The notes: generated from the letters alone by a model not told the origin. Positions 24,971-32,363 are shown, counted from the stretch's first letter. The stretch: DNA of 64,000 bases from Actinomadura rayongensis (GCF_009831215.1 NZ_WUTW01000008.1:1-64000), one strand, 5' to 3'. Program-made: numbers and translations.

Positions 24971-25019
24971 CGGGTGTGATGTGTGGAACATCCGTTTCGA
25001 CCTACTACTCTGCTCGCTC

Positions 25020-26627
25020 ATGGAGTTCGACAGGGCGCCCCGCGCGCGCCGGACGCCGTTCGTGGTGCTCTGGCGGCTCATCGACGGACGTCCCGGCGAC
25101 TCGCGGACGGTGATCGTCCGCCGCGCCCGGCGCCTGGTCACGATCGCCACGGGCCTGGCCAACCTCGGCGGCGCGCTGGTCGTCTTCCTGTTCACGCTCG
25201 TCGTGCCGAACCCCGACGGCGACATCCCGGGCCGGCTGGAGACGATCAACGTCTGGCTGTTCACCGTCTACGTCACGCTGGCGGTGCCGGTCGGGCTGGT
25301 GCTCGGCGCGCGGGTGTTCCGGGGCGTCCGGCGGATCGTGGAGCGGGACGAGGGCGCGCGGCCCGGCGAGCGGTCCGCGCTGCTGTACGCGCCGCTGCGG
25401 ATGATGGCCGTCCACCTGATGCTGTGGGGCATCGGCTCGGTCGGCTGGGTCGTGATCAACGCCGTCTTCTCGCCGCTGCTGGCCGCCAAGCTCGGCCTGA
25501 CGAGCCTGCTCGGCGGGCTCACGACCTGCACGATCGTCTACCTGCTCACCGAGCGGCTGCTGCGCCGCGCCGTCACGGCCGCGCTGCGCTCGGGGACCCC
25601 GGCGCGGACCGGGCTGCCGGGCGTGGTGGCCCGGTCGGTGCTGGCGTGGGCGCTCGGGACGGCGGTGCCGATCCTCGGGCTCGTCGCGCTCGCCGTCGGC
25701 TCGCTCGTCTTCGCGCGGGTGACGCTGCGGGACTTCGCCGTGGCCGCCCTCGTCCTCGGCGGGACGGCGCTCGTCGTCGGGTTCGCCGTCACCTACGGCG
25801 CCGCGCACGCCATCGCCGACCCGGTGGAGTCGGTGCGGTTCGGGCTCGCGCGCATCGAACGCGGCGACCTGGACGTGGAGGTGCCCGTCTACGACGCCAG
25901 CGAGGTCGGCCTGTTGCAGGCCGGGTTCAACCACATGGCGGCGGGCCTGCGCGAGCACGAACGCCTGCAAGACCTGTTCGGACGGCAGGTCGGCCCGGAC
26001 GTCGCCCGCGTCGCGCTCGAACGCGGCATCGACCTCGGCGGCGAGACGCGCCGGGTCGCGGTGCTGTTCGTGGACATCATCGGCTCGACGCGGCTGGCCG
26101 CCGACCGGCCGCCGAGCGAGGTCGTCGCGCTGCTCAACGCGTTCTTCGGCGTGGTCGTCGAGGTCGTCGGACGGCACGGCGGCTGGATCAACAAGTTCGA
26201 GGGCGACGCGGCGCTGGCGATCTTCGGCGCTCCGCTGGACCTGGACGGCGCGCCCGCCCGCGCCCTCGCGGCGGGCCGCGAGCTGGCCGCCCGGCTGCGC
26301 GCCGAGGTGACGGGCGTGTCGGCGGCCGTCGGGGTGTCGGCGGGCGAGGCCGTCGCCGGGCACATCGGCGCCGAGGAGCGGTTCGAGTACACCGTCATCG
26401 GCGACCCGGTGAACGAGGCCGCGCGGCTCACCGACCTCGCCAAGTCGACGCCCGCGCTCGTGCTGGCGGCCGGTTCGGTCGTCGCGGCGGCGGGCGATCC
26501 CGAGGCCGCGCACTGGGAACTCGGCGAGGAGGTCGTGCTGCGCGGCCGGACCGAGCCCACCCGGCTCGCCGCCCCGGTGCCCGAGCCCGCCGCCGAGGCG
26601 GAGACGGCGGACGCGGCCGGACGCTAG
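25020..26627 (+). CDS. Six-TM HAMP class III adenylate/guanylate cyclase
   Basis: 535 aa from ATG 25020. Six hydrophobic segments in the first ~265 residues are followed by a HAMP linker (RFGLARIERGDLDVEVPVYD) and a class III cyclase domain (~345-515). Metal-binding aspartates lie in AVLFVDIIGSTRLA and NKFEGDAALAIFG; the transition-state Asn/Arg region is VIGDPVNEAARL. The architecture and length match mycobacterial Rv1318c/Rv1319c/Rv3645. It should make cAMP at the membrane in response to an unknown signal. It converges with the lipoprotein gene, overlapping by 4 bases (CTAG). Confidence 0.93.
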   Translation: MEFDRAPRARRTPFVVLWRLIDGRPGDSRTVIVRRARRLVTIATGLANLGGALVVFLFTLVVPNPDGDIPGRLETINVWLFTVYVTLAVPVGLVLGARVFRGVRRIVERDEGARPGERSALLYAPLRMMAVHLMLWGIGSVGWVVINAVFSPLLAAKLGLTSLLGGLTTCTIVYLLTERLLRRAVTAALRSGTPARTGLPGVVARSVLAWALGTAVPILGLVALAVGSLVFARVTLRDFAVAALVLGGTALVVGFAVTYGAAHAIADPVESVRFGLARIERGDLDVEVPVYDASEVGLLQAGFNHMAAGLREHERLQDLFGRQVGPDVARVALERGIDLGGETRRVAVLFVDIIGSTRLAADRPPSEVVALLNAFFGVVVEVVGRHGGWINKFEGDAALAIFGAPLDLDGAPARALAAGRELAARLRAEVTGVSAAVGVSAGEAVAGHIGAEERFEYTVIGDPVNEAARLTDLAKSTPALVLAAGSVVAAAGDPEAAHWELGEEVVLRGRTEPTRLAAPVPEPAAEAETADAAGR

Positions 26628-28467: not shown

Positions 28468-28649
28468 CGTCCCTCCCGTCGAGGTCCCGTGGCGGACAGC
28501 GCCCATCTTCGCGCATCGCCCGCGCCGCCGCGTCCCCGGCCGCGTCACGGGACGCATTCCGTTCGTGGCGTACGGCGCGGAAAATCACGCGCGTCCGGTT
28601 CATCATGGTCGGCGGGACGGCTCGGGACCCGTCGGGAAGAGGTGAACCG

Positions 28650-31600
28650 TTGCTCCACGACCCCGCGCGGCCGGGCGGTTTCTGGGACCAGCTCGCGCCG
28701 TCGGACCGGGAGGCGCTGCGCGCGATGGGCCACGGCCTGCGGGTCCGCCCCGGGACGGCGCTGCTGCACCAGGGGGAGGCGGCGGGCGGCGTCCGCGTGC
28801 TGTTCGCGGCGGGGCCGCCGACGGCCGGGACCGTCCTCGCCAAGGAGATCGTCGGCTCCAGCGAGGGCCACGAGTCGATCATCGACCTGTTCGGGGCGGG
28901 CGACCTCGTCGGCGGGCTCGCGCCGTGGGGCGGGCCGCAGCGCGGGACGGTCGTCGCGCTCGACCACCTCGTCGTGCTCCGCGTGGACCGCCGCCAGTTC
29001 GGCCGCCTGCTCGCCGCCGGGCCGCAGATCGCCGGGGCGCTCATGCGGACCCTGGCCGCCGACCAGGCCCGCGCCGGCCGCCGGCACGCGCTGCGCGCCG
29101 CCGAGCACCCCCAGCGGCTGGCCTGCCACCTCCTGGAACTCGCCGAGCGGTTCGGCACGGCCGGCCCGGACGGGTGCCGCGTCCCGGGCCGGCTGAGCCA
29201 GGCCGACCTCGCGAACTGGTCCGGGCTGTCGCGCGAGACGCTCGTCCGGTGGTTCCGGGTCTGGCGGGCCGACGGCGTCCTGTCCCGCCGCGCCCGGCCG
29301 CTGACGATCCTCGACCCCGCCGCGCTGCGCCGCGCCGCCGGGCCGTGGGCCGCCGACCCGCCGCCCGCCGCGCCCGCCGTCCCGGCCGCCGCGCTCCCCG
29401 CCGGGATCGCCGCGCCCGACCCCGAGCCGCTGGAGCCGGGCGGCCCGCCGCGCCGCCTGCCCGCCGACAAGCCGTCCTTCACCGGCCGGTCCCTCAGCCT
29501 CGCCAAGCTCGACCTGCTCGTCGGGAGCGGGCCGCGCGGCGTGCTCGTCCAGGGCATGGCGGGCGTCGGGAAGACCACGCTCGCGATCCACTGGGCGCAC
29601 CGCGCCGCCGACCGCTTCCCCGACGGGGTGGTCTTCGCCGACCTGCGCGGCACGACCCCGAGCCCGCTCACCCCCGCCGGGGCGATGGGCCGGGTGCTGC
29701 GGGCGCTCGGCGTCCCCGGCGACCGGCTGCCGCGCACCGAGGACGAGCTGGCCGCCCAGTGCCGCGCGCTGCTCGGCGGACGGCGGACGCTGCTCGTCCT
29801 GGACGACGCCGCCGAGTCCGGGCAGGTCGCGCCGCTGCTGGCGGCCGTGGACGCGGGCCTCGTCGTCGTCACCGCCCGCCGCCGGATGCCCGACCTCGTG
29901 GAGGGCACGGGCCTGCGGACGCTGGAACTGGGGCAGATGGGCGCGGCCGAGGCCGTCGACCTGATCGCCGCCGTCCTCGGGCCGCGCGACCCGCGCGTCC
30001 GGGCCGAGCGCCGCGCCGCGCAGCGCCTCGCCGACAAGTGCGGACGGCTGCCGCTCGCCCTGTCGCTCGTCGCGGCCCGGCTCGCCGAGGATCCCGCCGC
30101 GTCGATCGCCGGGACCGTCCGGAAACTGGCCGGTACGGAGGCGTACGCGCCCGGGATGGTCGTCCTGCGCACCGGACTCGGCCCCACCATCGAGGTCGCC
30201 TACCGGAGCCTGCGCCCCGACCAGCGCGCCGCGTTCCGGCTGCTCGGCCTCGCGCCCGGCCCGGACTTCTCCGCCGCGTCGCTCGCCGCGCTCACCGGCC
30301 GCGACGCCGCCGGGGCCGCCGACTGCCTGGACGGCCTCCGGCAGGCGTACCTCGTCCAGGACGCCGCGCCCGGCCGGTACCGGATGCACGACCTCGTCCG
30401 CGCGTTCGCCCGCGAGCGCGCGCTCGCCGAGGACGCCGACAGCGACCGGATCGCCGCCCAGCGCCGCCTGCTCGCGTCGTGCCTGGCGGGCGCCCTGGCC
30501 GCCGGGGACGCCCTCGGCCGCCGCCGCAGGCCCCGCGTCGCCACCGGCCCGCCCGCCGCGCCGCCGATGACCAGGACCGAGGCCGTCGCGTGGTTCGAGG
30601 CCGAGCGGCGCACGCTGGTCGCCGCCGTCCACCAGGCCGCCGGGCTCGGCCTGCACCGGACGTGCCTGCGCCTCGCCGACGCCCTGTTCGACTTCCAGGA
30701 GTTCCGCCGCTACAGCGATGACAACGTCGCCGTCCACCTGGCGGGCCTGCGGTCGGCCCGCGCGCGGGAGGACTGGGCCGCCGCGGCCGTCATGCTGCAC
30801 AACCTCGCGGTCGCGCACTTCGAGCTGGGTCGGTCCGTCCAGGCCATCGGGTACGCCGAGGACGCCCGGCGCGGGTTCCGCTCCGCCGAGCCGCACGACG
30901 CGTTCGGCGAGGCCGCCGCGCTCACCACCCTCGCCGAGATCCACGGCGCCCTCGGCCGCTACGCCACCGCGATCGAGCACGCCCGGCACGCCCTGGCCAT
31001 CCACCGGGCGCGCGGCGACGCGGCCGGCGCCGCCCGCGCCCACGAGACCCTGGCCCGCGCGGGCGTCGGGCGCACCGACTACGACGCGGCCGAGCGCGAC
31101 GCCCGCCGCGCGATGGCGCTGCGCCGCGCGACCGGGGACGGCCCCGGGCTCGCCGCCACCCTGCTGACGCTCGCGCAGATCCAGCGGCGGCGCGGCGACG
31201 TCCAGCAGGCCGTCGTGTACGTCCTGGAGGCCCTGGAACTGCGGCAGGAGGAGGGCGACCGGCCGGGCGCCGCGCAGGCGCTCACCGAGCTGGCCCGGAT
31301 GCACGCCACCCTCGGCCTGCGCGACCTGGCCCGCCGCGACGCCGACCTGGCGCTGCGCACCAGCCGCTCCCTCGGCGCCCGCCACGGCGAGGCCCGCGCG
31401 CTCGCCACGCTCGGGCGGCTGGAGTGCGACGCGGCCCGGTTCGCCGAGGCGTTCACCCACTGCGGACGGGCCCTGCGCCTGCACCGGGAGATCGGCGACC
31501 GGCACGGCGAGGCCGAGGTCCTGGCCCGGACGGGCATGGTCCACGGCCGTCTCGGCCGCTTCCACGAGGCCCGCGAGCACCTGGAACGCGCCCTGGAGAT

Positions 31601-32363
31601 CCGCCGCGAGCTGGGCGACCGGCACGGCGAGGCGCACGACCTGGAACAGCTCTCGATCGTCCTGCGCGGGCTGGAGCGCGACGCCGAGGCGTTCGTCGTC
31701 GGCCTGGAGGCGCTGGACCTGTTCCACGGGCTCGGCGCGCGCGGCGGCGTCGCCGGGACGCTCGGCAGCCTCGCCCGCACCTACCTCGGCCTCGGCCTGC
31801 ACGCCGAGGCCGAGCACGCCGCGCGGCAGGCGCTGCGGCTGCGCGCGGAGATCGGCGACCGGTACGGGACGGGCGTCGGCATGGACACGGTCGCGGCCGT
31901 CCTGCACGGCGGCGGCCGGCCCGCCGAGGCGCTGACCGCCGCCCGCGAGGCGCTGCGGGTCCTCGGCGAGGTCGGGGACCGGCACGGGGCGGGCGTGGCG
32001 CTCGCCCGGCTGGCGGCGATCCACCTCGACCTCGGCGACGCGCCCGCCGCCCTCGCGACCGGACGCCGCGCGCTGGACCTCGCGGCCGACCTCGGCGACG
32101 CCCGCGAGCAGGCCGTCTCGCTGCACGTCATGGGCCGGGCGTGCCAGTCGCTCGGCCGTCCCGCCGAGGCGGCCGACCACCTGCGCGCCGAGATCGGGAT
32201 CCGCCGGGACCTGGCCGACCACCGGGGCCGGCGGCAGGCGCTGGAACGGCTGGCCGAGGCGTGCGCGGCGCTCGGCGACCGGGACGCGGCGGCGGACTGC
32301 CGGCGGCGCGTCCGGGCCATCGACCAGTGGCTGGCGTCGGAGGAGGCGACCCCGGCGGTGTGA
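28650..32363 (+). CDS. Crp-like regulator fused to NB-ARC NTPase and TPR repeats
   Basis: 1237 aa from TTG 28650 with AGAGGTG 6 bases upstream (ATG 28605 is an alternative). Domains in order: a cyclic-nucleotide-binding-like beta-roll (~8-125: LLHQGEAAGGVRVL, FGAGDLVGGLAPW, QRGTVVAL); a Crp-type winged HTH (~178-212: LSQADLANWSGLSRETLVRW); a STAND/NB-ARC NTPase with Walker A GMAGVGKTT (302-310), Walker B LLVLDD (~381), GRLPLAL (~466) and MHD (579-581); and about 13 TPRs (~690-1224, many with GDRHGEA turns). The layout parallels AfsR/SARP proteins but with a Crp rather than an OmpR-type head. The beta-roll lacks the usual Glu of the cAMP phosphate-binding cassette, so its ligand is open. It is probably a signal-integrating transcription factor; a defence role, as in other STAND proteins, is also possible. 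Confidence 0.88.
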   Translation: MLHDPARPGGFWDQLAPSDREALRAMGHGLRVRPGTALLHQGEAAGGVRVLFAAGPPTAGTVLAKEIVGSSEGHESIIDLFGAGDLVGGLAPWGGPQRGTVVALDHLVVLRVDRRQFGRLLAAGPQIAGALMRTLAADQARAGRRHALRAAEHPQRLACHLLELAERFGTAGPDGCRVPGRLSQADLANWSGLSRETLVRWFRVWRADGVLSRRARPLTILDPAALRRAAGPWAADPPPAAPAVPAAALPAGIAAPDPEPLEPGGPPRRLPADKPSFTGRSLSLAKLDLLVGSGPRGVLVQGMAGVGKTTLAIHWAHRAADRFPDGVVFADLRGTTPSPLTPAGAMGRVLRALGVPGDRLPRTEDELAAQCRALLGGRRTLLVLDDAAESGQVAPLLAAVDAGLVVVTARRRMPDLVEGTGLRTLELGQMGAAEAVDLIAAVLGPRDPRVRAERRAAQRLADKCGRLPLALSLVAARLAEDPAASIAGTVRKLAGTEAYAPGMVVLRTGLGPTIEVAYRSLRPDQRAAFRLLGLAPGPDFSAASLAALTGRDAAGAADCLDGLRQAYLVQDAAPGRYRMHDLVRAFARERALAEDADSDRIAAQRRLLASCLAGALAAGDALGRRRRPRVATGPPAAPPMTRTEAVAWFEAERRTLVAAVHQAAGLGLHRTCLRLADALFDFQEFRRYSDDNVAVHLAGLRSARAREDWAAAAVMLHNLAVAHFELGRSVQAIGYAEDARRGFRSAEPHDAFGEAAALTTLAEIHGALGRYATAIEHARHALAIHRARGDAAGAARAHETLARAGVGRTDYDAAERDARRAMALRRATGDGPGLAATLLTLAQIQRRRGDVQQAVVYVLEALELRQEEGDRPGAAQALTELARMHATLGLRDLARRDADLALRTSRSLGARHGEARALATLGRLECDAARFAEAFTHCGRALRLHREIGDRHGEAEVLARTGMVHGRLGRFHEAREHLERALEIRRELGDRHGEAHDLEQLSIVLRGLERDAEAFVVGLEALDLFHGLGARGGVAGTLGSLARTYLGLGLHAEAEHAARQALRLRAEIGDRYGTGVGMDTVAAVLHGGGRPAEALTAAREALRVLGEVGDRHGAGVALARLAAIHLDLGDAPAALATGRRALDLAADLGDAREQAVSLHVMGRACQSLGRPAEAADHLRAEIGIRRDLADHRGRRQALERLAEACAALGDRDAAADCRRRVRAIDQWLASEEATPAV

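Follow-up and report, generated by a model that had tools for sequence, protein, structure and literature searches.

Is the long open frame in the 64,000-nucleotide stretch of Actinomadura rayongensis DNA analysed here (GCF_009831215.1, NZ_WUTW01000008.1:1-64000; hereafter the window) a genuine fusion of a Crp-like DNA-binding head to a STAND switch, and, if so, what might it bind and what might it sense? The original prediction, made from the sequence alone, had proposed a Crp beta-roll and helix-turn-helix (HTH) joined to an NB-ARC NTPase and about 13 tetratricopeptide repeats (TPRs), and had named a mis-joined frame or the lack of a beta-roll as the ways in which this reading could fail. 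We find that the protein is a conserved gene-control protein of at least four related genera and that it is a further variant among the STAND transcription factors rather than a system of a new kind.

A Crp head, an NB-ARC core and a TPR array in one reading frame

The gene is a single plus-strand frame of 1252 residues when counted from its first ATG (Table 1). The TTG at 28650, already used as the start in the original prediction, appears to be the better choice of start, because it is preceded by an AGAGGTG ribosome-binding site and lies near the onset of ortholog homology (about residue 22); no ribosome-binding site was seen in front of the ATG at 28605. The frame has a third-position GC content of 0.98, scores far above the overlapping frames and carries the strongest coding signature of the region.

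Pfam detects cNMP_binding (30.3 bits, cut-off 27.5), HTH_Crp_2 (57.7 bits, cut-off 27), NB-ARC (44.0 bits, cut-off 23.5) and TPR_12 (158 bits, 9 stretches), all above their curated cut-offs, and together with AlphaFold models and orthologs this confirms the proposed order of a Crp/Fnr beta-roll, a Crp-type winged HTH, an NB-ARC domain and TPRs. The head is modelled with a pLDDT of 81, and its best PDB match in Foldseek is M. tuberculosis CRP (PDB identifier 3d0s; TM score of 0.87 by target length), with C. glutamicum GlxR alongside it among the best structural matches, so that a cNMP-type beta-roll is indeed predicted. The roll is followed by the C-helix, the dimerisation helix of Crp proteins, and the linker behind the HTH is the least conserved part of the protein (conservation 0.46).

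Residues 283-1252 are modelled with a pLDDT of 88, and their best fold match is PH0952 (PDB identifier 6mfv), at only 16% identity, followed mostly by TPR proteins and Apaf-1 (PDB identifier 1z6t). The nucleotide-binding motifs that had been read from the sequence are all present and intact, namely Walker A (GMAGVGKTT, residues 317-325), Walker B (LLVLDD), the GxP-like motif (CGRLPLAL) and MHD (residues 594-596), and the Walker A, Walker B, GxP, MHD and winged-helix elements of a STAND protein follow one another in order. Across 38 homologs, the most distant at about 37% identity, no substitution occurs in the Walker A residues, the GxP Pro or the MHD His; the Walker B Asp pair is replaced by Glu-Asn in one more distant genus (g34, see below). 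A helix count on the AlphaFold model gives 13 TPR hairpins with a 40-residue period, in agreement with the predicted number; repeats 7-8 are the most conserved and repeats 12-13 the least. The helical segment between the STAND core and the TPRs may be equivalent to the arm of PH0952 (PMC6468293).

Table 1. Features of the Crp-NB-ARC-TPR locus, in window coordinates
Feature	Position	Strand	Basis or remark
Crp-NB-ARC-TPR gene	28605..32363	+	preferred start TTG 28650 (1237 aa), alternative ATG 28605 (1252 aa)
16-bp dyad CGCGTC-ACGG-GACGCA (CGCGTCACGGGACGCA), candidate operator, Crp geometry	28541..28556	.	orthologous dyad in 23/23 loci
Crp/cNMP-type beta-roll, residues 26-137	28680..29015	+	Pfam cNMP_binding; AlphaFold and Foldseek to MtbCRP/GlxR
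Region of the phosphate-binding cassette, residues 104-114; Glu position 104 is Gly, Arg113 is retained	28914..28946	+	alignment of 20 diverse members
C-helix, residues 140-163	29022..29093	+	AlphaFold secondary structure
Crp-type winged HTH, residues 169-243; recognition helix about 210-222, RETLVRWFRVWRA	29109..29333	+	Pfam HTH_Crp_2
Variable disordered linker, residues 250-284	29352..29456	+	pLDDT about 45-50
NB-ARC nucleotide-binding and helical domains, residues 286-500; Walker A at 29553-29579	29460..30104	+	Pfam, alignment, AlphaFold
Winged-helix domain with MHD motif, residues 515-640	30147..30524	+	alignment, AlphaFold
Helical arm between STAND core and TPR sensor, residues 641-723	30525..30773	+	AlphaFold helices
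13 TPRs, residues 724-1248	30774..32348	+	helix count

Distribution and origin of the fusion

Related loci number 28, all in Actinomadura or Spirillospora, and every one of the 24 that are full length carries head, linker, NB-ARC and TPRs in one open frame (61-77% identity). Whole-genome searches added three genera of the family with this architecture, at identities of 47% (g47), about 41% (g34) and about 37% (g17); the junction matches a Nonomuraea gerenzanensis record at 81%, which places g17 in Nonomuraea or very close to it. The mis-joining of HTH and NB-ARC is ruled out, since the join is in frame in the 24 full-length orthologs and in the relatives from the three more genera (13 outgroup loci). 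Given the same continuous frame in 37 homologous loci of four genera, and a single clade of Crp-headed members in the NB-ARC tree, there is practically no chance that a frame error has welded two genes together.

A profile of the head-to-P-loop junction was run against 395 genomes of the class and returned the family members at an E-value of 1e-119, with a drop to 1e-36 for the next matches, which are stand-alone Crp proteins whose frames mostly end after the HTH. No Crp-headed fusion was seen outside the family in this sample of 395 genomes. In a tree built from NB-ARC domains alone, with the head columns left out, all 18 Crp-headed sequences, from four genera, form one clade (support 100/98), which sits among SARP-headed, XRE-headed and other STAND proteins. 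Because all Crp-headed NB-ARC domains form one clade, a single fusion event accounts for all Crp-headed members found.

Genomic neighbourhood and gene loss

Comparison of the neighbourhoods of the homologues places the gene at a fixed core-genome position across the genus, which in the window is a setting of core genes including uvrA, uvrC, rapZ and whiA. The usual order in Actinomadura is a divergent metallo-beta-lactamase gene, the gene of a 163-aa membrane protein, the Crp-NB-ARC-TPR gene, which lies a few bases from the membrane-protein gene or overlaps it, the gene of a stand-alone Crp protein (Crp2) encoded directly downstream in most loci and, farther on, uvrA. Both partners have been lost from the window lineage and from A. 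atramentaria, and neither Crp2 nor the membrane-protein gene is present at the g34 and g47 loci. The g34 locus is near pit, mshD and glnR, and in Nonomuraea glnR precedes the gene by about 100 bases and has the same orientation.

The gene is cleanly lost from genome G011, where the adjacent metallo-beta-lactamase is 95% identical to that of the window; G083 and G008 keep the membrane-protein gene without it, and G135 has neither. Its absence from these four genomes shows the gene to be dispensable; it is lost occasionally and is otherwise passed on by vertical inheritance at a fixed position. A HAMP/class III cyclase gene lies close by in the window (24981-26627), but it is equally present in the four genomes that lack the gene and is therefore no evident partner, so that a functional link was rejected; no class III cyclase was seen near the gene in g34, g17 or g47. 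Carriage on a plasmid or phage was likewise rejected: the only phage or plasmid record found to cover the junction is a Nonomuraea gerenzanensis 'plasmid' of 11.85 Mb, the size of a chromosome.

A candidate operator upstream of the gene

A 16-bp dyad, TGMGTC-N4-GACKCA, is present in strict or nearly strict form in all 23 intact Actinomadura and Spirillospora loci. It precedes the gene itself or, in most species, the gene of the small membrane protein with which the operon begins. The dyad arms hold 1.78 bits per alignment column, as against 0.62 in the upstream flank and 1.06 in the downstream flank. Positions 3 and 14 vary independently and are complementary in only nine of the 23 loci, a pattern that agrees with a site for a protein but not with an RNA hairpin. 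The distance from the dyad to the first start is 109 bases in the window and 112, 109 and 113 in loci L023, L030 and L033; it is thus kept although the operon of the window lineage no longer begins with the small membrane-protein gene that comes first elsewhere, and in the window lineage and A. atramentaria together it is 109-113 bases.

The geometry is that of a CRP site, with G at two positions that are read in E. coli CRP by Arg180 and by Glu181/Arg185. R210, E211 and R215 of the present protein correspond to these three residues, and they form an R-E-x-x-x-R pattern that is invariant, within an equally invariant S-R-E-T-L-V-R segment of the recognition helix, in all 25 genus members. The dyad of g47, TGCGTCCGGAGACTCC at -52, has the same geometry and half-site. 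That of g34, TGTGTCAATTGACACA at -64, stands before a gene at an unrelated locus, with which only the Crp-NB-ARC-TPR gene is shared, so that the form TGTGTC-N4-GACACA recurs in another genus at an unrelated locus; in two of the five g34 genomes the dyad is degenerate, and the g34 recognition helix is without the Glu. In Nonomuraea (g17), where the recognition helix has diverged, no such dyad was found. Since Crp2 and the membrane-protein gene are both absent from the outgroup loci, the large protein would be the simplest common factor to bind the candidate dyad.

The window dyad departs from the strict consensus at one position, and sites with that degree of mismatch arise by chance. No strict TGMGTC-N4-GACKCA site occurs in the window's genome; with C allowed at the first position there are 7 sites, and the reversed control gives 3. 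Across 60 genomes of the genus there are about 2 sites per genome, compared with about 0.5 in the control. The pattern GMGTCNNNNGACKC was too loose for a usable search. A second site that recurs lies across the stop codon of a DUF397 gene. It is almost always self-complementary, is often followed by ATTT, occurs as a one-mismatch copy in G008, where the large gene is absent, and is missing from G000 and G003, which have the large gene; it looks like a terminator-type hairpin, and we have rejected it as evidence for a wider regulon.

The ligand pocket of the Crp head

The cassette of the window protein reads GGL at the Glu position, not GEL, as had been noted at the outset. The position is Gly, Ala, Val or Asp in Actinomadura, Spirillospora and g47, and GEL is kept in g34 and Nonomuraea (g17). 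Arg113 and Trp108 are invariant in all 38 members, the Arg lying nine residues past the Glu position, the same spacing as in the mycobacterial CRP sequence. The residue that follows this Arg is Gly, Ala or Val (Gly in the window) and Ser or Thr in no aligned member, so that the Gly-Glu-Leu and Arg-Ser/Thr cassette of the cAMP-binding Crp subgroup is not found. Because the Glu is lost in the genus and Ser/Thr is absent after the Arg in all aligned members, cAMP is an unlikely ligand, which bears out the doubt raised in the original prediction, with the refinement that loss of the Glu is confined to the genus and g47. The roll is under purifying selection (mean identity 0.69 over 38 members, 11 invariant positions), and with Arg113 and Trp108 held the pocket does not seem to be simply dead.

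Proposed mechanism and alternative readings

We consider it fairly probable that the protein is an autoregulated transcription factor in which a STAND switch, through its TPR sensor, governs paired Crp heads that act at the upstream dyad. By analogy with PH0952 and MalT, in which arm and sensor lock the resting form (PMC6468293), and with AfsR (PMC10972967), the NB-ARC core would rest as an ADP-bound monomer closed by the arm and the TPR array. Binding of an inducer, most likely a protein or peptide, by the 13-TPR sensor would open the core, upon which ADP would be exchanged for ATP and the protomers would associate. Association would pair the N-terminal Crp heads through their C-helices, the long disordered linker allowing them to pair freely, and the paired recognition helices could then grip the palindrome upstream of their own operon. 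The protein probably controls its own promoter in this way.

There is about an even chance that the head in such a switch is a ligand-free DNA anchor, in which no more than the fold, the C-helix and the HTH has been retained and all sensing falls to the TPR/STAND part. The erosion of the cassette agrees with this, as do the SARP- and XRE-headed relatives, which carry heads without a small-molecule sensor on the same chassis, but the invariance of Arg113 and Trp108 suggests a retained pocket. That Arg, which is the phosphate-binding one, the selection on the roll and the GEL of two genera point instead to a live second sensor, i.e. to a two-input gate that would need both a pocket ligand and a TPR inducer. 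We regard such a gate as doubtful in view of the loss of the Glu in the genus and g47 and of Ser/Thr after the Arg in all aligned members; moreover, cassette residues 107-111 are the least confident part of the head model (pLDDT below 50), most genus members have an 8-residue insertion in the roll, and the class III cyclase occurs also in the four genomes without the gene. A shade less probable again is a coincidence detector, in which the Crp pocket would read a small molecule other than cAMP, the TPRs a protein or peptide, and the ATP-dependent STAND switch would combine both before pairing the heads on DNA.

The placement of Crp2 directly downstream in most loci raises the alternative that this protein or a paralogue binds the dyad, the large protein acting by hetero-dimerisation with it or elsewhere. 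G008, which keeps the small membrane-protein gene and the dyad (TGAGTCCGCTGACGCA) without the large gene, also suggests that another Crp protein may use the dyad, or else that the gene loss is recent. We think this alternative improbable, as the dyad persists at the window, L033, L034, g47 and g34 loci, all without Crp2, and, of the three contact residues, the recognition helix of Crp2 (GRRKVAQ) has neither the Glu nor the second Arg. Defence is the role of many prokaryotic STANDs, and an anti-phage immune protein with the Crp head as effector would fit the repeated loss of the gene (G008, G011, G083, G135); CRP-like winged HTHs and cNMP-binding domains are also listed by Kaur et al. 2020 (PMC7159879) among the modules of NTP-dependent conflict systems. 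Here, however, PADLOC yields nothing beyond a generic TPR match and a weak one to mad8, with no model matched together with partner genes, no defence genes lie alongside, the neighbours are housekeeping genes at a fixed core-genome position in the genus, and the DNA-contact residues are intact and the candidate operator conserved. The hint of a role in phage defence thus finds no support, and an immune function is very improbable by comparison with the autoregulated transcription factor.

Relation to known regulators

All parts of the protein are known, and what is new is their combination, its phylogenetic range, its single origin and the candidate operator; a literature search of incomplete coverage found no description of a Crp-NB-ARC-TPR regulator. 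Large SARPs such as AfsR of Streptomyces likewise have an N-terminal DNA-binding head, a central NB-ARC and C-terminal TPRs, and it is among SARP-headed proteins that the NB-ARC of the Crp-headed protein falls in the tree. Their head consists of a SARP DNA-binding domain and BTAD (PMC10972967), whereas here it is a Crp beta-roll and Crp-type HTH, followed by 13 TPRs, and no Pfam match to a SARP (OmpR-type) DNA-binding domain with BTAD was found in the protein. The NCBIfam AfsR model reaches 356 bits, with its best stretch at residues 272-752, and stays well below its cut-off of 1430 bits; that it can be aligned over this region supports the view that a Crp head has been placed on an AfsR-type chassis. 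The actinobacterial NB-ARC/TPR chassis can thus be seen to exchange its DNA-binding heads, the Crp head having been captured once and kept in at least four genera. Since the way in which Crp proteins recognise DNA is well understood, and a candidate operator is available, the protein offers a direct route to testing STAND control of DNA binding, a step poorly understood for medium and large SARPs, along with a Crp pocket unlikely to bind cAMP.

PH0952 of Pyrococcus horikoshii (6MFV) and MalT share with it a STAND core, a helical arm, a TPR sensor and a DNA-binding effector. PH0952 differs in its ArsR-like head and 6 TPRs, and MalT in the C-terminal place of its DNA-binding domain; no C-terminal LuxR-type HTH, as in MalT and LAL proteins, was found here by Pfam or AlphaFold, the TPRs reaching residue 1248. 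In the accessible text of Kaur et al. 2020 (PMC7159879), multicellular prokaryotes have Crp-like parts that are fused to STAND-type NTPases or linked with them, but these are multi-gene conflict systems, and a Crp-NB-ARC-TPR regulator is not described there. With Crp, GlxR and MtbCRP the protein has in common the beta-roll, C-helix, winged HTH, R-E-x-x-x-R helix and 16-bp dyad geometry; it differs from them in its fusion to a STAND switch, in a cassette without Glu and Ser/Thr, and in a half-site of TGMGT as against the usual Crp half-site TGTGA.

Neighbourhood, loss and second copy of the Crp-STAND gene

The first gene of the operon in most Actinomadura encodes a 163-aa membrane protein, for which no Pfam family was found and whose gene lies a few bases upstream of the Crp-STAND start or overlaps it, while in Nonomuraea a different small membrane protein of ~123 aa is encoded directly 3' of the Crp-STAND copy. 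Most loci have the gene for a stand-alone Crp, Crp2, immediately 3' of Crp-STAND; its cassette contains GEL, but its recognition helix is changed (GRRKVAQ). The membrane-bound HAMP/class III nucleotidyl cyclase of the window is kept in the neighbourhood with or without the Crp-STAND gene. The latter has been cleanly lost in G011, which is closely related to the genome of the window and in which the gap between the metallo-beta-lactamase (MBL) and GNAT genes is ~180 bases.

In Actinomadura soli, a second copy lies within a 1597-aa open frame that carries an extra Crp domain (36% identity) N-terminal to the usual head, and is possibly a double-headed version. Further afield, glnR adjoins the Crp-STAND gene in Nonomuraea and in g34, another genus of the family (L070-L081); in Nonomuraea it precedes the gene by ~100 bases in the same direction, and in g34 pit/mshD are also found beside it. 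This vicinity might link the Crp-STAND gene to nitrogen or phosphate control.

Coordinates of the features discussed
Feature	Locus	Position	Strand
HAMP/class III nucleotidyl cyclase	window	24981-26627	+
163-aa membrane protein (with orthologs elsewhere)	L023	5481-5972	
Crp2 (with orthologs elsewhere)	L023	9898-10596	
Second Crp-STAND copy, A. soli	L017	5914-10704	
Crp-STAND loss, G011	L089	G011:C6:168000-184000	
~490-aa protein (with orthologs elsewhere)	L143	7169-8641	

A self-complementary sequence at XRE-DUF397 pairs

A conserved, self-complementary TGAGTC-N4-GACTCA, with the half-sites of the Crp-STAND dyad, overlaps the DUF397 stop codon in the XRE-DUF397 pair (L140-L154, L167-L184), where it looks like a short terminator hairpin. 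A gene near this pair encodes a ~490-aa protein that has a cNMP-binding domain at its N terminus and whose C-terminal half, which has no match in Pfam, is cyclase-like, with the motifs VYTDVAGFSS and EDRGDGALI.
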